Source: Roseomonas alba
Lineage (GTDB): Bacteria > Pseudomonadota > Alphaproteobacteria > Acetobacterales > Acetobacteraceae
Reading direction: 5' to 3'
DNA: 64,000 bases
Assembly: GCF_019430885.1 (NCBI RefSeq)
Contig: NZ_JAHYBZ010000012.1
Coordinates: 62,001-126,000, forward strand
Shown: positions 27,363-35,176 of the stretch, in pieces
Numbering within the stretch: the stretch's first letter is position 1
Layout of the letters: the number at the start of each line of letters is the position of its first letter
Notes under the pieces: model-generated
Database searches by the model: none
Told to the model about the DNA's origin: nothing
The model's input: the letters and a program-made list of their open reading frames with translations, nothing else
Program-made: the position numbers and the translations under genes

Positions 27363-27893
27363 ATGACCAAGCCCGCCATCCGCGACAGCCGCCACGAGGA
27401 CATCCCCGCCATCGCCGCCATCTATGGTCATTGGGTCACCCACGGCCTGGCGAGCTTCGAGCTCGACGCCCCGCCGCCGCCCGAGATGGCCCGCCGGCGC
27501 GATGCAATCCTTGGCGCCGGCTATCCCTATCTCGTCGCCGAGCGCGACGGCCGGGTCCTCGGCTACGCCTATGCCTCCGCCTACCGCCCTCGCCCGGCCT
27601 ACCGCTTCACGGTCGAGAACTCGGTCTATGTCGCCCCCGACGCCGGCCGCGGCGGGGTCGGCCGGACCCTGCTCGCCGCGCTGATCGACCGCTGCGCCGC
27701 GCGCGGCTTCCGCCTGATGGTCGCCGTGATCGGCGATTCGGCCAACACACCCTCGATCGCCCTGCACCAGGCCGCCGGCTTCACCCGGGCCGGGCTGCTG
27801 CCGGCGGTGGGATGGAAGCACGACCGCTGGGTGGACAGCGTGCTGATGACGCGCCCGCTCGGCCCCGGTGCGGCCATCGCGCCGCTGGGCTGA
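27363..27893 (+). CDS. GNAT N-acetyltransferase, phosphinothricin acetyltransferase-like
   Basis: A 176-residue acetyltransferase. It has the PAT-type patterns IAAIYGHWVTHGLASFELD, GYAYASAYRPRPAYRFTVENSVYV, the acetyl-CoA pyrophosphate loop GRGGVGRTLL and HQAAGFTRAGLLPAVGWKHDRW. Members acetylate phosphinothricin, methionine sulfoximine and similar amino acid analogues, or unknown metabolites. The ATG at 27363 begins at the normal family N terminus. It is followed 32 bp later by a cation antiporter gene. Confidence 0.9.
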   Translation: MTKPAIRDSRHEDIPAIAAIYGHWVTHGLASFELDAPPPPEMARRRDAILGAGYPYLVAERDGRVLGYAYASAYRPRPAYRFTVENSVYVAPDAGRGGVGRTLLAALIDRCAARGFRLMVAVIGDSANTPSIALHQAAGFTRAGLLPAVGWKHDRWVDSVLMTRPLGPGAAIAPLG

Positions 27894-27925
27894 CGCCGCG
27901 GCGCAACGCGGTATCCTGTCCGGCA

Positions 27926-29638
27926 ATGACCCATGCCGGACCGCTGGTCGCGACCCTCGTCGTCGGCCTTGCCCTTGCGTTTGCCCTTGGCTTCGCGGCC
28001 CGGTTGCTGCGTCTGCCGCCCCTGTTGGGCTACATCGCCGCTGGCGTCGCGGTCGGGCCGCATACGCCGGGCTTCGTCGCCGATCCGACACTGACCGCCG
28101 CGCTGGCCGAGATCGGCGTGGCCCTGCTGCTCTTCGCCGTGGGCCTGCATTTCCGGGCGCGGGACCTGATGGCGGTCTGGCGCATCGCGGTGCCGGGCGC
28201 GCTCGCGCAGATCGCCCTCGCCACGCTGCTCGGGGCCGGAACGGGGATGCTCGCCTTCGGCCTCGGCGGGCCGCCGGCGCTGGTATTCGGGCTGGCGCTG
28301 GCCATTTCCTCCACCGCCGTCGCGACCCGCGCGCTGGATGAACGCGGGCGACTCGGCGGCGAGGCCGGGCGGATCGCCCTCGGCTGGCTGGTCATGCAGG
28401 ATCTGGTGGTGGTGCTCGCCCTGGTACTGCTGCCTGCGCTCGCCGATGCGCACCAGGCAGACAATTTGGCTGCCACGCTCGGCGCAACGCTTCTGCAACT
28501 GGTCGGCTTCATCGCCGCCATGGCGATCGGTGGGCGGGTGCTGCTGCCCTGGCTGCTCGCCCGCGTCGCGGCGACGGGCTCGCGGGAGCTCTTCACCCTC
28601 GCCGTCATCGTCGCCGCGCTCGGCACGGCCTTCGGCGCGTCGGCACTGTTCGGCGTGTCGCCCGCGCTCGGCGCCTTCTTCGCCGGGGTGCTGCTGGGGG
28701 AAAGCCCGCTCGGCCACCAGGCCGCGGCCGATACCGTGCCGCTGCAACGTGTCTTCGTCGCCCTGTTCTTCGTGTCGATCGGCGCGGTGGTGGAACCGGA
28801 GGCGATGCTCGCCCTACCCGGTGCGTCCTTCGCGACCCTGCTCAGCGTGCTGCTCGGCACAGGCGGCGCGATTCTCGGCCTGCTGCTGCTGATGCGCGTG
28901 CCGCTGCCGGCCGCCGCAACGGTCGCCGGCGCCATGGCGCAGATCGGCGAATTCTCCTTCCTGCTCGCGCAGCTCGCCATCGGCGCCGGCCTATTGCCGG
29001 TGGAAACGCGCGGCCCGCTGCTCGTCGCGGCGACCCTGACCATCGTCGCGACGCCCCTGACGCAGTTCCTCACCGATCGCCTGGCGCTGTGGATCGAGGG
29101 CACGCGCCGCGTCCAGGTCTGGCTCGCGCGCCGGGGCAGGGCACGGCTGTCCAGCCCGCCGCCGCAGGGGCTGGAAGACCATGCCATCCTGGTCGGGCAT
29201 GGCCGCGTCGGGCGCGTCGTCGCCCAGGCGCTGCAACGCCACGGCCGGCCCTATGTGGTGATCGAGGCCGACCACGCCGCGGCCTCGGCCCTGCGCGCCG
29301 CCGGCACTCCGGTCGTCTGGGGCGACGCCGCGCGGCCCGAGGTGCTGCACGCCGCGCGGCCCGAAACGGCCCGCATGATCGTGCTCGCCATGCCCGAGGC
29401 CGCCGGCTGCCGCCGCGTGCTTGACATCGCCCGCGCCGCCAACCCCGCCATCATCGCCGCCGCCCGCGCGCATGATGAGGAGGAAGCCGCCTTCCTCGAA
29501 CGCGAACAGGGCATGGGCCTGGTGGTGATGGGGGAGCGGGAGATCGCCCTTGGCATGGCCGACTACGCCATGACGCGGCTCGGCGTCACGGTCGAGGCAT
29601 CCCAGCGCACGGTGGAGGATCTGCGCGCCGGACGCTGA
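27926..29638 (+). CDS. Kef/YbaL-type monovalent cation:proton antiporter (CPA2) with TrkA-N domain
   Basis: A 570-residue membrane protein. About twelve hydrophobic segments (residues 1-390) show CPA2 patterns such as LLRLPPLLGYIAAGVAVGP, LLLFAVGLHF and SALFGVSPALGAFFAGVLLGESP. The C-terminal RCK/TrkA-N domain starts near residue 410 with HAILVGHGRVGRVVAQAL, a nucleotide-binding loop. It likely exports K+ (or Na+) in exchange for protons. The ATG at 27926 begins the first membrane segment; upstream extension overlaps the acetyltransferase gene. Its stop codon is also the left boundary of a palindromic element. Confidence 0.93.
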   Translation: MTHAGPLVATLVVGLALAFALGFAARLLRLPPLLGYIAAGVAVGPHTPGFVADPTLTAALAEIGVALLLFAVGLHFRARDLMAVWRIAVPGALAQIALATLLGAGTGMLAFGLGGPPALVFGLALAISSTAVATRALDERGRLGGEAGRIALGWLVMQDLVVVLALVLLPALADAHQADNLAATLGATLLQLVGFIAAMAIGGRVLLPWLLARVAATGSRELFTLAVIVAALGTAFGASALFGVSPALGAFFAGVLLGESPLGHQAAADTVPLQRVFVALFFVSIGAVVEPEAMLALPGASFATLLSVLLGTGGAILGLLLLMRVPLPAAATVAGAMAQIGEFSFLLAQLAIGAGLLPVETRGPLLVAATLTIVATPLTQFLTDRLALWIEGTRRVQVWLARRGRARLSSPPPQGLEDHAILVGHGRVGRVVAQALQRHGRPYVVIEADHAAASALRAAGTPVVWGDAARPEVLHAARPETARMIVLAMPEAAGCRRVLDIARAANPAIIAAARAHDEEEAAFLEREQGMGLVVMGEREIALGMADYAMTRLGVTVEASQRTVEDLRAGR

Positions 29639-29781
29639 GAGACCGTTTGAAAAGTCCGGCACCGGCCCGCACCCCCACCCGGCCTCCCAACGACAGTATG
29701 CTGAATTGGGTGACCGGGTGGGGGTGCGGGCCGGTGCCGGACATGGAAATGCGCCGAACGGCGCGTTTCCAGACGGTCTCT
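29638..29781. repeat. Three-hairpin palindromic element, copy A (MITE- or REP-like)
   Basis: The element is bounded by inverted ends AGAGACCGTTTGAAAA (29638-29653) and its near complement (29766-29781), 14 of 16 matching. Inside is a perfect 28-bp stem (29655-29682 with 29714-29741), within whose loop CCCAA/TTGGG can pair again, and then a small GCGCCG/CGGCGC hairpin (29751-29764). A second copy is at 33246-33378. The first base is the A of the antiporter TGA stop. The element fills the gap to the convergent YbaK gene, where it could also stop transcription from both sides. Confidence 0.9.
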
Positions 29782-29785
29782 GACC

Positions 29786-30262
29786 CTATCCGTCCTCTCG
29801 CACATCGGCCGCCGCGGCGCCGGAGATGCGCAGCAGCTCCTTGGGCGTCGAACGGAATACATGCCGCGGCGATCCCGCCGCCGCCCAGACGTCGCCCAGC
29901 GCCAGCAGATCCTGATCCAGCAGCACGATCGGCGGTGCCAGGTGCCCGACCGGCGAGACCCCACCGATCGCGAAGCCCGTGGTGTCGCGCACCCAGGTCC
30001 CGTCCGCGCGCTTCACCGGCTGGCCGATGGCGGCCGCGACCTTGCCCATATCGACCCTGTTGGCGCCGGACGCGATGACCAGCACCGCCCGCGCGCCGGC
30101 GCGGAAGACAATGGATTTGGCGATCTGCGCGACGTCGCAGCCGACCGCCGCGGCGGCATCGGCGGCGCTGCGCGTGCCTTCGGGGAAGGCGGCAATGGTG
30201 TCCGGATGCCCCGCCTCCGCCAGCGCGGCGCGGACCCGGTCGATGGAAGAGGAACCGCTCAT
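29786..30262 (-). CDS. YbaK/EbsC family aminoacyl-tRNA deacylase-like protein
   Basis: A 158-residue YbaK-fold protein, close to the editing-domain group that hydrolyses mischarged tRNAs (for example Cys-tRNA-Pro or Ala-tRNA-Pro). The family patterns CDVAQIAKSIVFRAG, LVIASGANRVDMGKV and TTGFAIGGVSPVGH are present, including the conserved Lys in the first. It runs leftwards towards the antiporter, with the palindromic element between. The MAPEG gene is 10 bp upstream, so the two may be one transcript. Confidence 0.92.
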   Translation of the reverse strand: MSGSSSIDRVRAALAEAGHPDTIAAFPEGTRSAADAAAAVGCDVAQIAKSIVFRAGARAVLVIASGANRVDMGKVAAAIGQPVKRADGTWVRDTTGFAIGGVSPVGHLAPPIVLLDQDLLALGDVWAAAGSPRHVFRSTPKELLRISGAAAADVREDG

Positions 30263-30272
30263 GCCCCCGCCG

Positions 30273-30665
30273 CTACCACAGCCCGAGCCCGCCGCCGAGG
30301 GCCAGCACCCCGGCGATGACCAGCGCCAGCAGCGTCAGGGCGATGCCGGCCGCGCGCAGCGGAACGATGTCGGGTTCCTGCGACAGGCCGATCGCATGCA
30401 GCACGCGCCCGACCAGCATCGCCATCCCCGCCGCATGCAGCGCCCAGCCCGGCGCGCCGCATAGCTCCGCCGCCGCAATCGCCACCAGAAACAGCGGCAC
30501 GTATTCGGCGAAGTTGGCATGGACGCGGACCGCCCGTTCCAGCAGCCGGTTCCCGCCGGTGCCGAGCATGATCCCGCTCGGCTGCCGCACGGCGAAGACG
30601 CGCAGGGTCAACAGGATGAACAGGGCGATCAGCAGCCCGGCATAACTTGCGGTGATCTGGGGCAT
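30273..30665 (-). CDS. MAPEG family membrane protein
   Basis: A 130-residue protein with four hydrophobic segments, the usual size of membrane-associated eicosanoid/glutathione-metabolism proteins. Typical pieces are the N-terminal helix YAGLLIALFILLTLRV, then RAVRVHANFAEYVPLFLVAIAA with the conserved Arg/His/Asn/Glu group. Bacterial members may have glutathione transferase activity, but the substrate here is unknown. It is divergent from hemW (40 bp) and upstream of the YbaK gene. Confidence 0.9.
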   Translation of the reverse strand: MPQITASYAGLLIALFILLTLRVFAVRQPSGIMLGTGGNRLLERAVRVHANFAEYVPLFLVAIAAAELCGAPGWALHAAGMAMLVGRVLHAIGLSQEPDIVPLRAAGIALTLLALVIAGVLALGGGLGLW

Positions 30666-30705
30666 GCGCTCTCCACGGTTCGACAGGGGCGGCCCGACGC
30701 GCCAT

Positions 30706-31869
30706 ATGCCCGCCGTGACCGAACCTCTCGCCCTCTACATCCACTGGCCCTTCTGTGCCGCCAAGTGCCCGTATTGCGACTTCAACTCGCATGTCCGGGA
30801 CCGTGTGGACGAGACCCGCTTCCGCGCCGCCCTGCGCCGCGAGCTGGCACATGAGGCCGCGCGGGTCGGTCGCCGCCCGCTGGCCAGCATTTTCTTCGGC
30901 GGCGGCACGCCCTCCCTGATGTCCCCCGACACCGTCGCGGCGCTGATCGAGGACGCCCGCACGCATTTCGACATGGCAGAGGACATCGAGATCACCCTCG
31001 AAGCCAATCCGACCAGCGTCGAATCCGCCAAGCTGCGCGCCTTCCGCGAGGCCGGCGTGAACCGCGCCAGCCTCGGCGTTCAGTCGCTCGAGGAGGAGGC
31101 GCTGCGCTTCCTCGGCCGCCGCCACGACACCGCGCAGGCGATCGCGGCGCTGGAGGCCGCGCGTGCCATCTTCCCCCGCCTATCCTTCGACCTGATCTAT
31201 GCCCGCCCCGGCCAGGCCGAATCCGCCTGGCGCGCCGAACTCCGCCGCGCCCTGGCGCTCGCCGCGGATCACCTCTCGCTCTACCAGCTCACCATCGAGC
31301 CGGGCACGCAGTTCGCCACGCTGCACGCCCGCGGCGCCTTCGCCCTGCCCGAAGGCGACGACGCCGCCCGCCTGTATCTCGCCACCGCCGAGGAAGCCGC
31401 GCGCTTCGGCCTCGCCGCCTATGAGGTCAGCAACTACGCCAAGCCCGGCGCGGAGAGCCGCCACAACCTCGCCTATTGGCGCTATGGCGACTATCTCGGC
31501 ATCGGCGCCGGCGCGCATCAGCGCCTGCTGCGCGACGGCACCATGATCGCCACGCGCCGCCACCGCGCGCCCGAGGAATGGGCCGCCCGCGTCGAACGCG
31601 ACGGCCATGCGGCGGTGGAGGAAGAACACCTCGCCCCCGCCGAGCGCGCCCGCGAGGCCCTGCTGATGGGCCTGCGCCTCACCGAAGGCATCGACCCCGC
31701 ACGCATCGAAGCGCGATCCGGCCTGCCCTTCGCCACGACCGTCGACCCGGCCATGCTCGCCGCCCTGATCGACGAGGACTACCTGGTCTGGACGCAAGCT
31801 GGCCGTCTGCGTGCGACGGAGGAGGGAATCCTCCGCCTCGACGCTCTGCTCCCCGTACTCCTGCGGTAG
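30706..31869 (+). CDS. hemW: Radical SAM heme chaperone HemW
   Basis: A 387-residue radical SAM protein, the normal HemW length. The iron-sulfur motif C-x3-C-x2-C is at Cys17, Cys21 and Cys24 (FCAAKCPYCDFN), with the HemN-like FFGGGTPSLM and ANPTSVE stretches. HemW binds heme and passes it to client proteins; the gene is often mislabelled as coproporphyrinogen oxidase, but the extra cysteine next to the cluster that marks HemN (CxxxCxxCxC) is absent. The ATG at 30706 starts just before the domain; further in-frame starts upstream add no similarity. Confidence 0.94.
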   Translation: MPAVTEPLALYIHWPFCAAKCPYCDFNSHVRDRVDETRFRAALRRELAHEAARVGRRPLASIFFGGGTPSLMSPDTVAALIEDARTHFDMAEDIEITLEANPTSVESAKLRAFREAGVNRASLGVQSLEEEALRFLGRRHDTAQAIAALEAARAIFPRLSFDLIYARPGQAESAWRAELRRALALAADHLSLYQLTIEPGTQFATLHARGAFALPEGDDAARLYLATAEEAARFGLAAYEVSNYAKPGAESRHNLAYWRYGDYLGIGAGAHQRLLRDGTMIATRRHRAPEEWAARVERDGHAAVEEEHLAPAERAREALLMGLRLTEGIDPARIEARSGLPFATTVDPAMLAALIDEDYLVWTQAGRLRATEEGILRLDALLPVLLR

Positions 31870-31956
31870 CACGCGGTTTCGGCAACCATTCCGCGATCCT
31901 CCGCGTTTCCCCGTCAGATGGCCGCATGGCGCGGCCCGGAACAGGAGGTCGGGACC

Positions 31957-32034
31957 ATGCGTTCGATCATTCTCTACCTGCTGGGTGTGCCCATCGTGGT
32001 CATCATCCTGCTCAACGTTTTCCACCTGATCTGA
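31957..32034 (+). CDS. 25-residue single-helix membrane protein
   Basis: A very short frame starting at ATG 31957, with an excellent ribosome-binding site (AGGAGGT, 8 bases upstream). The peptide is almost wholly one hydrophobic helix: MRSIILYLLGVPIVVIIL, then a short LNVFHLI tail. Similar tiny MRxIxLxLxGxPI-type proteins are common in alphaproteobacteria and have no known function. It lies between hemW and a small glycine-zipper lipoprotein, 47 bp ahead of the latter, and may be co-transcribed with it. Confidence 0.75.
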   Translation: MRSIILYLLGVPIVVIILLNVFHLI

Positions 32035-32081
32035 TCGGGCGGCCCGCGCCTTTCCACACATTGAGAGAGGAGAAGCCAACC

Positions 32082-32324
32082 ATGATCCGCAGCTTTCCCG
32101 CCATCATCGCCCTCGCCGCCGGCCTCGGCCTCGCCGCCTGCGGCACCTCGCCCGGCGAGCGCGCCGTGTCCGGCGGCCTGCTCGGCGCCGGCGCGGGCGC
32201 CGCGGTGGGGTCCTTCTCCGGCAACGCCGGCACCGGCGCCCTGATCGGCGGCGCGCTGGGCGCGGTGGGCGGCGCGGCGACGTCGCCGAATACCGTGAAC
32301 CTGGGCGACCCCGCCTGGCGGTAA
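32082..32324 (+). CDS. Small glycine-zipper lipoprotein
   Basis: An 80-residue protein. It has a lipoprotein signal peptide with lipobox LAAC (Cys20), then two Gly/Ala-rich GxxxG-type helices (GGLLGAGAGAAVGSF and GALIGGALGAVGGAA). Such glycine-zipper proteins sit in the cell envelope and resemble the OsmB / 17-kDa antigen N-terminal motif, but no function is proven. GAGAGGAG precedes the ATG. It is followed by two hairpin repeats. Confidence 0.85.
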   Translation: MIRSFPAIIALAAGLGLAACGTSPGERAVSGGLLGAGAGAAVGSFSGNAGTGALIGGALGAVGGAATSPNTVNLGDPAWR

Positions 32325-32351
32325 GCGGCGGCCAAGCGTTTAGGCGCGCAT

Positions 32352-32401
32352 CGGAGGGGCCCTGCCCCTCCGAACCACCCCGCGAGGTGCTTGGAGCACC
32401 T
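32352..32401. repeat. Composite hairpin repeat (module a plus a second hairpin)
   Basis: Hairpin a: CGGAGGGGC / GCCCCTCCG (32352-32372, perfect 9-bp stem). Thirteen bases later comes AGGTGCT-TGG-AGCACCT (32385-32401, perfect 7-bp stem). It lies just after the glycine-zipper gene. The intervening DNA up to the next repeat at 32523 has no recognisable gene. Confidence 0.75.
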
Positions 32402-32522
32402 GGACCGCAATCGATTGGCGCCAAGCACGACAGACACGCCGCACCCGCCAAAACGCGCTCCGGGCGTAAGGGTGGGTTTCGGCTCTCATGCTGTCAGGGG
32501 CGCCCAGCGCCAAGTTGAGGTT

Positions 32523-32576
32523 GCAAAGGTCTTTCGGCCTTTGCCGGGATGGCTTGGAGGAGCAAAGCCCCTCCAA
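32523..32576. repeat. Composite hairpin repeat (modules c and a)
   Basis: Module c: GCAAAGG...CCTTTGC (32523-32544). Module a: TTGGAGGAGC-AAA-GCCCCTCCAA (32554-32576), one mismatch in ten pairs. The order and spacing match the copy at 39449-39502. It lies 100 bp upstream of the nfu-like gene. Confidence 0.75.
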
Positions 32577-32676
32577 TTCCACGGTCGAGGCCCGAACGGG
32601 CCGCCCTGTCCGGTTGCATGCGCCGGGTTTCCGGACCACATAGGTCGGGAATTCAGACCTTCCGCGGAAGTTCGCC

Positions 32677-33246
32677 ATGTTCATCGAGACCGAAGCCACC
32701 CCCAATCCCGCCACGCTGAAGTTCCTGCCCGGGCGCGACGTCCTGGGCGATCGCGGCACGGCGGATTTCACCGCGGCCGAGGACACGGCCGGACGATCCC
32801 CGCTCGCCGAGCGTGTCTTCCAGGTCGGCGAGGTGGCGCGCGTCTTCCTCGGTGGCGATTTCGTCACCGTTACGAAGACGACGGACGCCGACTGGACACT
32901 GCTGCGCCCGCGCGTGCTCGGCGCGATCATGGAGCACTATCTGTCGGGCCTGCCCGTGCTCGAGGCCGGTGAGGCCGAGGGTGAACACGGCGAGGACTAC
33001 GACCCGGTGGATGAGGAAGTCGTCTCGCAGATCAAGGAACTGCTCGACACCCGCGTCCGCCCGGCGGTCGCCGGCGATGGCGGCGACATCGTCTTCCGCG
33101 GCTTCCGCGAGGGTATCGTGCGACTGCACATGCAGGGGGCCTGCTCGGGCTGCCCGTCCTCCCGCGCCACCCTGAAGCACGGCGTCGAGAACATGCTGCG
33201 CCATTACGTGCCGGAAGTGGTCGCGGTGGAGCAGGTCGAAGCCTGA
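32677..33246 (+). CDS. NifU/Nfu family iron-sulfur cluster scaffold protein
   Basis: A 189-residue protein with two domains. The N-terminal Nfu_N domain opens with MFIETEATPNPATLKFLPGR, and the C-terminal NifU-like domain has the cluster-binding C-x2-C at Cys156 and Cys159 (GACSGCPSS). Nfu proteins carry Fe-S clusters from the assembly machinery to target enzymes. No isc/suf genes are close. The ATG at 32677 directly begins the conserved N terminus. The stop codon overlaps copy B of the three-hairpin element. Confidence 0.94.
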   Translation: MFIETEATPNPATLKFLPGRDVLGDRGTADFTAAEDTAGRSPLAERVFQVGEVARVFLGGDFVTVTKTTDADWTLLRPRVLGAIMEHYLSGLPVLEAGEAEGEHGEDYDPVDEEVVSQIKELLDTRVRPAVAGDGGDIVFRGFREGIVRLHMQGACSGCPSSRATLKHGVENMLRHYVPEVVAVEQVEA

Positions 33247-33378
33247 GAGACCGTTTGAATCGTCCGGCACCCCCACCCGGCCACCCATCCAGGATACTGC
33301 CGTTGGGTGACCGGGTGGGGGTGCCGGCCGGTGCCGGACATGGATATGCGCCGATCGGCGCATTTCCAAACGGTCTCT
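33246..33378. repeat. Three-hairpin palindromic element, copy B
   Basis: Same family as 29638-29781. The terminal inverted ends are AGAGACCGTTTGAA and its complement ending at 33378. The right arm of the long hairpin is full length, but the left arm lacks about 10 bases, consistent with slippage between repeated GGCACC units. The small hairpin is a perfect 18-bp palindrome (33346-33363, ATGCGCCGATCGGCGCAT). The first base is the A of the nfu-like TGA stop, exactly as in copy A. Confidence 0.9.
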
Positions 33379-33488
33379 GACCCGTCATTCACGGAACTGA
33401 TCGCCGCCATCAGCCCCACGCCCTGGTGGGGTTGCGGCGCGCGGGCTTATGCGGTGGCATCGCAGCATTTCCCATCCAGGACATCGAC

Positions 33489-34085
33489 ATGGCCCACGAG
33501 ACGATCGACGCCGCCGCACTCGACCAGCTGTTCCGCGAGGCCCGCACGCAGAACAAATGGCAGGACCGGCCGGTGCCGGATGCCAAGCTCCACGAACTCT
33601 ACGACCTGGTGAAGCTCGGCCCGACCAGCGCCAATGCCTCGCCGGCCCGCTTCGTCTTCGTGCGCACGCCGGAAGGCAAGGCCAAGCTGAAGGAGGCGCT
33701 GTCCTCGGGCAACATGGAGAAGACGATGACCGCCCCGGTCACCGTTATCGTCGCCCATGACCTCGACTTCCACGAGAAGCTGCCGACGCTCTTCCCGCAT
33801 GCGCCGGATGCGAAGAACTGGTTCACCTCGAGCCCGTCCTTCGCCGAGCAGACCGCCTTCCGCAACGGCTCGCTGCAGGGCGCCTACCTGATCCTGGCGG
33901 CCCGCGCGGTCGGCCTCGATGCCGGTCCGATGAGCGGCTTCAACAACGCCAAGGTGGATGAGCTGTTCTTCGCCGGCACGCGCTGGAAGTCGAACTTCCT
34001 GATCAACCTCGGCTATGGCGACCCCGCGGGCCTGTTCGAGCGCAACCCGCGCCTGAGCTTCGAGGAAGCCGCCCGTTTCGAGTAA
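33489..34085 (+). CDS. Nitroreductase family protein, RutE/HadB-like (malonic semialdehyde reductase)
   Basis: A 198-residue flavin reductase. It matches the RutE group in length and in [62 protein letters not shown] and [10 protein letters not shown]. RutE reduces malonic semialdehyde in the pyrimidine-degrading Rut pathway; related enzymes reduce other aldehydes, enones or nitro groups. No other rut genes are in the window, so the physiological substrate is open. The ATG at 33489 begins the conserved region. Confidence 0.88.
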
Positions 34086-34282
34086 TCCGGGTCACAGCGC
34101 ATCGGGCCGGCCGCGATGGTTCGCCTGTTCGCCTCCTTCGCTGGAAATCTGGCGAAGTGGGCGAGCAGGACATCGGGGGGCGACCTGAAACGCTTCACGG
34201 CACGATTCGTATCCAGCTTGAAACTGTCGGCGCGGCGGTCGATCCTTGTGGCCACATCGCTATTTCGGCAGGAACGCGCAGC

Positions 34283-35176
34283 ATGCCTCGACGCCTTCTG
34301 ACCGCCGCCGCCGCGCTGATCGGGCTAATGGCCGCGCCGGAATTTGCCTTCGCCCAGAAGGGCCAGAACCCGGCCGAGAGTCGGCCCGCCGTGATGCCAT
34401 TCGGCAGCGTGGGCGCTGACGGTGCTGCCGCGATCGGGGCCGGGCTGCGCCTGTTCCCGGCCGCGGCCGGTTCGCCCATGGCCCCAGCCAACCCGGCACC
34501 GGCACCCGCCTCGGTGCCCGTGGCGCCGTCGGGTGCTGCCGGTCCGGCGGTGAAGCCCGTCGCTGCTGCCGCACGGCCGGCTCAGCCCAACTTGCCTACG
34601 ACCAAGCCAGCCGCAGCGGGCGCGCCCGCCGGGGCGCCCGCCGTGCTGCGCAGCCCGACGGCCTTCGCGCCGGATCCGTCCATCACGGCACGTGTGCGCC
34701 AGCAGGTCTTGGCTACTGCCCTGCCGACCAGCCCCGATCCGGACGCTCTCCGTGCCACCGTGAACAGCGGCCGGCCCTGGCAGGAATTCGACCAGCTGTT
34801 GACCCAGCATGGCTATGACCCGCGCGACTTGGCCGATGTCGTCGCGGCCTTCTACCTGATCGCCTGGGAGGTCGCGACCGGCGGCGATGCGCTTGCCCAG
34901 CCTGCCGGCATTGCCGCGGTGCGCGGCCAGGCGCGGCAGATGCTCGCGACCAACCAGGCGATGGCGCGCTTATCCGAGGCGGAACGCCAGGCGACGGCGG
35001 AGACCCTCGCCTTTCACGCCATGGCCATCGCCGCGCGCAACCAGGACCTGCACAATGCCGGCGGAGGGCCTCAGGTGGCCGCATACCGCACCGAAGTGGC
35101 GAATGCGGTCGCGCAATGGCAGGGGATCGACCTGCGGCGCTTCGCCCTGATGCCGAGCGGGTTCCAGGAGCGCTGA
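34283..35176 (+). CDS. Exported DUF6683-like protein with Ala/Pro-rich linker
   Basis: A 297-residue protein with a signal peptide ending at EFAFAQ (about residue 25). A long Ala/Pro/Gly linker follows (roughly residues 55-120), then a helical C-terminal domain (from about 135) with LLTQHGYDPRDLADVVAAFYLIAWEV and a PQVAAYRTEVANAVAQWQGIDLR end. This C-terminal pattern resembles the uncharacterised DUF6683 family. The ATG at 34283 begins the signal peptide. Function unknown; periplasmic or surface location is inferred. Confidence 0.75.
   Translation: MPRRLLTAAAALIGLMAAPEFAFAQKGQNPAESRPAVMPFGSVGADGAAAIGAGLRLFPAAAGSPMAPANPAPAPASVPVAPSGAAGPAVKPVAAAARPAQPNLPTTKPAAAGAPAGAPAVLRSPTAFAPDPSITARVRQQVLATALPTSPDPDALRATVNSGRPWQEFDQLLTQHGYDPRDLADVVAAFYLIAWEVATGGDALAQPAGIAAVRGQARQMLATNQAMARLSEAERQATAETLAFHAMAIAARNQDLHNAGGGPQVAAYRTEVANAVAQWQGIDLRRFALMPSGFQER

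Follow-up and report, generated by a model that had tools for sequence, protein, structure and literature searches.

The 64,000-nt stretch of DNA analysed here (Roseomonas alba, Acetobacteraceae; RefSeq assembly GCF_019430885.1, contig NZ_JAHYBZ010000012.1, positions 62,001 to 126,000), called the window below, carries two copies, A and B, of an element of 133-144 bp with terminal inverted repeats (TIRs) and a long hairpin. A first-pass annotation, made from the sequence alone, took this element for either a small non-autonomous mobile element or a conserved RNA structure. Which of the two is it, and at what level is its hairpin kept paired? Both copies are real, and their sequence and coordinates hold as described when checked in the window. 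We conclude that they are very probably miniature inverted-repeat transposable elements (MITEs) that DDE transposases of the IS5 family mobilise in trans.

Insertion into stop codons

With the target duplication trimmed off, the element proper is 142 bp long in copy A and 131 bp in copy B (Table 1). Its parts follow in the order left end GAGACCGTTTGA.., long hairpin, small hairpin of the form ATGCGCC-NNNN-GGCGC.. and right end ..CGGTCTC, the two ends being of the type GAGACCGTTTG / CGGTCTC. One or two small sub-terminal hairpins are present in many copies, and copy B contains the palindrome ATGCGCCGATCGGCGCAT. The TIRs of the first-pass annotation are present in both copies, and the loss of about 10 bases from one arm of copy B concerns the left stem arm. 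The edges at 29638 and 33246 were correctly located, but the base given as the first is in each case the last base of the upstream TGA stop codon; the sequence CCCAA/TTGGG is found, not as a separate loop hairpin but as the top of the long stem.

Table 1. Coordinates of the two elements and their parts in the window (ORF, open reading frame).
Feature	Positions	Strand	Remarks
Copy A, left TGA duplication	29636-29638	+	stop codon of upstream ORF 27431-29638 (Pfam domains Na_H_Exchanger and TrkA_N)
Copy A, whole element	29639-29780	+	142 bp
Copy A, terminal arms	29638-29653 / 29766-29781		16 nt, 88% complementary
Copy A, long hairpin	29654-29742	+	arms 29654-29690 / 29706-29742, 37 nt, 95% complementary; 15-nt spacer; loop 29691-29705, reversed
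Copy A, small sub-terminal hairpin	29744-29771	+	predicted fold, 12 pairs, loop of 4
Copy A, right TGA duplication	29781-29783	+	
Copy B, left TGA duplication	33244-33246	+	stop codon of Nfu/NifU-type gene 32677-33246 (domains Nfu_N and NifU); empty sites in relatives
Copy B, whole element	33247-33377	+	131 bp; left stem arm about 10 nt shorter
Copy B, terminal arms	33246-33257 / 33367-33378		12 nt, 100% complementary
Copy B, long hairpin	33261-33330	+	arms 33261-33287 / 33304-33330, 27 nt, 93% complementary; loop 33288-33303, forward
Copy B, small sub-terminal hairpin	33341-33368	+	
Copy B, right TGA duplication	33378-33380	+	

Both copies are flanked by TGA/TGA, which answers the call of the first-pass annotation for a check of target-site duplications. 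The genes beside copy A encode Na_H_Exchanger/TrkA_N and tRNA_edit domains, and copy B is flanked by the Nfu/NifU-type gene and a nitroreductase gene; since the flanking genes differ between the copies, an origin by one segmental duplication, which had been named as a finding that would speak against a mobile element, was ruled out.

Relatives show the site of copy B in its empty state. The gene nfuA was present in all 29 searched genomes of the genus (weakly in G035), and the sequence after its stop codon was compared at 28 loci. The window reads GCC-TGA-element-TGA-CCCGTCATT at this point, and the stop codon is without the element in 26 of the relatives' 27 loci; the right flank is still alignable to that of the window in L245 and L247. 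At a second site (L016) the insert is missing in all 12 relatives examined, the gene ending with TGA in 10 and with TAG in 2. The empty site of copy A is unreadable in relatives because the neighbouring gene order differs there, and a CTAG-type empty site sought in the genus g83 gave relatives matching one flank alone or the element itself. In another species of the genus (G009, L249:1850-2010) a decayed element was seen in the same nfuA stop codon in opposite orientation, with the small hairpin on the other side, which is either a second insertion or an inversion in place.

Further copies, as the first-pass annotation had proposed to seek, were found in the genome and in relatives. A BLAST search with copy B gave 79 matches in the own genome at E<=0.001, both strands counted, falling on at least 40 places, which is a lower bound since 40 of 131 candidates were scored; such a number greatly exceeds what chance would give. 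Seven of the 20 searched genomes match, the own genome included, and all seven belong to the genus of the window. Short elements at four own-genome loci (L084, L088, L096 and L100, close to the match at 1501) keep the ends and the small hairpin with little or no long palindrome.

The target site was evaluated at the hairpins of the genus. Of the 59 own-genus hairpins, 42 have both ends when the flanks are left free; T-N-A was then found on both sides in 30 of the 42, and the flanking triplets were identical in 27 (17 TCA/TCA and 10 TGA/TGA). A laxer end search demanded T-N-A beside each end, so that the T and A found there are no evidence in themselves, and for this reason the search was repeated without the condition, as just given. 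The laxer search found 39 elements, leaving 20 own-genus hairpins without such a T-N-A end pair. The triplets are identical in 35 of the 39, the four others being TAA/TGA, TGA/TCA, TCA/TTA and TGA/TCA, the last with a doubtful end.

In 30 of the 39 elements of this T-N-A-required set, an adjacent ORF has its stop codon in the triplet, as judged by a simple gene caller that accepts ORFs from 80 codons upwards if they pass a codon-composition test. Three of the nine misses (L053, L054 and L062) end ORFs of 125-487 codons that fail the composition test alone. As a first control, such stops account for 29 of 1322 TGA/TCA sites (2.2%) in the sequence flanking the loci; as a second, for 45 of 442 (10%) among those sites that are either non-coding or a stop. 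Within the reach of the gene caller, selection against insertion inside genes is therefore insufficient on its own to account for the stop-codon bias. Two insertions, L033 and L047, lie about 20 nt apart at the end of one gene. As raw counts, TAG makes up 7 of 41 stops adjoining a hairpin and 9 of 66 other stops in the own genus, while outside it TAG accounts for 35 of 90 adjoining stops and for 118 of 500 among the remaining stops of those loci. Neither the stop codon as target site nor the spread of the hairpin beyond the genus, taken up below, had been visible to the first-pass annotation.

Candidate transposases of the IS5 family

The elements are short, carry TIRs, occur as dispersed copies, are flanked by a target duplication and have empty sites in relatives, all of which characterise a MITE. 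For a source of the transposase, 15 transposase loci of the genus were scanned for 14-bp ends starting with GAG, with at most 3 mismatches. In four of them the GAG ends are bordered by T-N-A at either edge: L308 (TGA/TGA), L312 (TAA/TAA), L310 (TTA/TCA) and L313 (TCA/TTA). The ends of L308 are GAGTCCGTCCGGGAA / GAGCCCGTCCGAAAA; its protein and that of L313 match NF033580 (IS5 family), and that of L308 also matches PF13340 and PF01609. In the own genome, an insertion sequence (IS) with PF13340 has the left end GAGCCCGCTTGAGAATGC, which has 16 of 18 bases in common with the end of the own-genome element L031. As the elements and the IS5-family ISs of the genus have GAG-type ends and T-N-A flanks in common, mobilisation in trans by IS5-type enzymes is the best explanation; judged from these sequence comparisons, it appears well supported at the level of the family, with no single enzyme to be named. 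The small non-autonomous mobile element of the first-pass annotation is thus supported, and the search it had proposed for a transposase gene with matching ends led to ISs whose ends are similar to those of the MITE, not identical.

The proposed course of events is as follows. By family resemblance, the transposase would recognise ends of the GAGACCGTTTG type. Insertion takes place at T-N-A, which here is TGA or the complementary TCA in nearly all cases, and three bases are duplicated, as the paired duplications and the empty sites show. When the target is a stop codon, the duplication leaves an in-frame stop and an intact gene.

Several observations weigh against this explanation. No autonomous IS with exact MITE ends was found among the 15 transposase loci. 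The ends of the IS5-family ISs are similar, not identical, to the MITE ends, and their flanks vary (TGA/TGA, TAA/TAA, TTA/TAG). A T-N-A pair occurs in just 4 of the 15 loci, L308 being the only one to resemble the MITE end well, while 7 of the 15 have no GAG end pair at all and 3 have only pairs with other flanks. The closest IS in the own genome (L101/L301) is flanked by TTA/TAG with no clean 3-bp repeat, and its frame is interrupted by a stop. Flanks are non-identical in 15 of the 42 elements when no condition is set, although several of these are misplaced ends. The own-genome copies are at most 92.8% identical to each other (37 compared), so that no very recent movement is seen in this genome. 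Finally, a plain MITE predicts no interior that is better conserved than its ends, which is what the hairpin turned out to be.

The core hairpin, its ends and its pairing

The core is a stem of 34-37 bp with near-constant sequence, and it extends well beyond the genus. An exact pattern of one arm matches at least 116 stretches of genome contigs and also 17 stretches of viral contigs. Among the matches listed (80 titles) are Sphingomonas, Hephaestia, Sphingopyxis, Sphingobium, Altererythrobacter and Qipengyuania, as well as Roseospira, Tistlia, Pelagibius, Belnapia and Neoroseomonas; a further one, L172, is Mesoflavibacter going by its title. A covariance model, R1, found matches in 15 of 15 genomes, 13 of which were picked for having pattern matches. 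With both strands counted and up to 150 candidates scored per genome, there are, for example, at least 128 matches in the own genome, 124 in Sphingomonas R647, 125 in Hephaestia, 104 in Pelagibius and 150 in Altererythrobacter, but 12 in Belnapia and 4 in that of L172. When genomes were drawn evenly from the class, under strict filters and with at most 17 candidates scored per genome, matches at E<=1e-6 were found in 15 of 240 genomes, the own one among them, and in 13 of 203 genera; the core is therefore widespread but patchy. One hairpin query had no match in GenBank phage records, and another matched 3 plasmid records.

Outside the genus the same core stands within other ends. The first end type, GAGACCGTTTG with T-N-A, is that of the own genus and occurs also in another family (G075: L386, L387). 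The second was found in Altererythrobacter (L384; CTAGAGTCGTTTTCAG, CTAGAGTCGTTTTCAGC..), and the third, CTAGATCGTTCCA..TGGAACGATCTAG, in G244, G288, G129 and G291 (L388 among the examples); in G288 a unit of 131 bp repeats exactly end to end at two places, with 98 and 99% identity. In the genus g83, 12 distinct loci have both ends and 10 more rows lack one; in 7 of the 12 the neighbouring gene stops at the TAG within the terminal CTAG, in 2 a stop lies 5 nt outside, and in 3 there is none. The core is thus shared by MITEs with other ends elsewhere in the Alphaproteobacteria and outlives its ends. The first two types share GAG and GTTT and, by this likeness, may be diverged forms of one type.

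Two side observations concern the core. In Sphingomonas koreensis (L117:3950-4080) a hairpin unrelated to the core, CCCCGCAAAGTATTACTTTGCGGGG, splits one core arm and may be a mobile palindrome as well. Some Acetobacteraceae contigs from metagenome-assembled genomes (L127, L141, L148, L202, L205 and L217) carry repeated half-arms, GTCCGGCACCGGCCCGCACCCCCA, with short spacers beside a full hairpin.

One reading of these data is that the long hairpin is a mobile unit of its own, REP-like (REP, repetitive extragenic palindromic) and with its own enzyme, which has inserted into several MITE families. It would account for one arm sequence inside at least three end types (GAGACCGTTTG, CTAGAGTCGTTTTCAG, CTAGATCGTTCCA), for the own-genome copies L040 and L044, whose ends are like TAGAGCATTTTTCGC, and for the many sphingomonad copies without a clear pair of ends. 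However, in 21 of 39 elements of the own-genus type the stem keeps the same distances of 28 and 51 nt to the outer edges (duplication included), near-identical copies in g83 repeat end to end, no gain of the core within constant ends was seen among these elements, and the first two end types may be related forms that have diverged. We regard this reading as improbable. We suggest tentatively, and with more doubt than confidence, that the core is a long-lived module, selfish or useful to the host, which has repeatedly changed its transposon ends. It would have ridden on different IS5-type transposases whose target motifs (CT[G/C]A[G/C], CTAG) coincide with stop codons, and in this way it would have reached many Alphaproteobacteria, viral contigs and plasmids while costing the host next to nothing, its sequence being selected by a binding protein or by a property of the palindrome.

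Pairing of the stem was evaluated on an alignment of 42 of the 63 stems that have a 14-nt loop, none of the 42 being from the own genus; 33 of the 42 are exact-pattern matches, so that one arm is partly fixed by the selection of the sample. In this alignment 92.8% of cells pair, against at most 49.4% in slid versions. Compensatory changes, which the first-pass annotation had advised looking for, are present: 15 of 35 stem pairs are changed on both sides, with a covariation score of 0.156 vs 0.069 shuffled, and none of 500 shuffles, which ignore relatedness, reached any observed measure. At an orthologous site in four viral contigs (L159, L233, L237, L238; among these, L159 is a genome contig whose element family is that of the viral contig L224), L233 has two stem pairs changed on both arms and its loop inverted relative to L159 and L237, and L238 has unpaired changes. 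At another site, L233 and L240 have flanks 80-87% identical and an identical stem. By alignment scores, the loop is forward in 22 of the 39 own-genus elements, reversed in 15 and unclear in 2; those of copies A and B are inverted relative to each other.

These changes would also be expected if the hairpin were kept for a role as RNA at the 3' ends of messages and its mobility were secondary. It could terminate transcription there or stop 3' exonucleases, on both strands where genes converge. The position of the hairpins agrees with such a role: a neighbouring gene's stop lies within 80 nt in at least 131 of 196 hairpins (90 one-sided, 41 between convergent stops), and 163 of 184 such stops are within 50 nt of the stem (median 31). 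So do predicted folds with short flanks at -123 and -95 kcal/mol, which are raw energies with no shuffle baseline. But the target is itself part of a stop codon in the own genus and g83, which explains the position without any benefit, and for 42 of the 196 hairpins no stop was called in the nearest 200 nt. Selection on RNA should moreover leave more G-U than A-C departures on the transcribed strand. In the 90 one-sided copies, which have a stop at most 80 nt away on one side and are free of gene ends for 200 nt on the other, 70 G-U and 85 A-C were counted (p=0.26), the counts being 20 and 15 in the 41 convergent copies, 35 and 36 in the 42 without a called stop, and 9 and 12 in 23 mixed ones. 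These counts are from ungapped arms, and misaligned arms contribute to their 343 transversion-type cells; with gaps allowed, 43 G-U and 56 A-C were counted. Rfam 15 at gathering score gave no match in the elements and a tRNA as sole match in the window; in four loci there were 18 matches at E<=1, all below gathering score, and those over the hairpin were mostly miRNA hairpins. Two terminator-like sites were found in 28500-34500, neither at an element, and there is no T-run match at the copies.

With a negative wobble test and no Rfam family, the conserved RNA structure of the first-pass annotation was rejected although its pairing is kept, and a role as RNA at message ends is unlikely to be the reason why the element is kept. 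An intrinsic terminator was rejected since neither copy has a T-run match. A G-quadruplex in the G-rich arm and an integron attC site were considered as well; as to the former, L009 keeps its pairing while the G-runs change. The missing G-U excess and the loop inversions together favour an origin of the pairing in DNA. Inside the ends of the MITE, the arms of the palindrome are kept complementary and the loop occurs in both orientations, which would fit arm-to-arm copying or strand switching; the inverted loops may be a sign of the latter. The pairing thus seems to be kept at the DNA level, with which an effect on transcripts is still compatible.

Comparison with known systems

What normally defines a MITE is a pair of ends recognised by a transposase, the sequence between them being arbitrary. 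Here it is this inner sequence that is conserved, and it is common to different orders and different ends. As a well-delimited family with a stop-codon target these MITEs are real; their kind is known, and the conservation of the core across different ends is unusual. Literature searches found no description of this repeat, and four exact arm strings had no match in the texts searched. Targeting stop codons is a simple way for a mobile element to stay harmless in a gene-dense genome. In the richer hosts, dozens of copies per genome lie at the 3' ends of genes; there they may affect the ends of mRNAs as well as the assembly of genomes and the typing of strains, and this in many environmental Alphaproteobacteria.

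IS5-family ISs and the MITEs derived from them resemble the present elements in TIRs starting with GAG, a T-N-A (or CTAG) target and related transposases in the same genus, but in place of a deleted transposase gene the interior here holds a palindrome whose conservation reaches further than that of the ends. In the IS1031 group the duplicated target is TNA. The ERIC/IRU, RUP and Correia elements are likewise intergenic MITEs of 100-150 bp with hairpin potential, differing in their ends, their TA target and their hosts; we know of no core common to different end types among them. Most IS5/IS427-group elements of Paracoccus have 2-bp duplications, according to PMC3281130.

The GTAG and CGTC REPs and the bacterial interspersed mosaic elements (BIMEs) are palindromic, reach high copy numbers, are intergenic, lie near gene 3' ends and occur in Alphaproteobacteria (PMC3733652). 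Judged by the repeats themselves, it is nevertheless most improbable that the present hairpins belong to such a REP/BIME system with a RAYT (tyrosine) transposase. Their stems of 34-37 bp are much longer than the 8-9 bp given there for CGTC REPs, their ends read GAGACC without a GTAG/CGTC tag, they have TIRs and 3-bp duplications, and CGTC REPs are reported in the same paper to be missing in Acetobacteraceae. Perfect inverted repeats are reported to be enriched after stop codons across bacteria in general and have been ascribed to terminators (PMC13155455). A parallel in the use of the target is ISPsp10 of the IS427 group, also an IS5-family element, in which the target site supplied a stop codon for its own transposase (PMC4133298); it differs in being an autonomous IS, with no host gene's stop codon involved.

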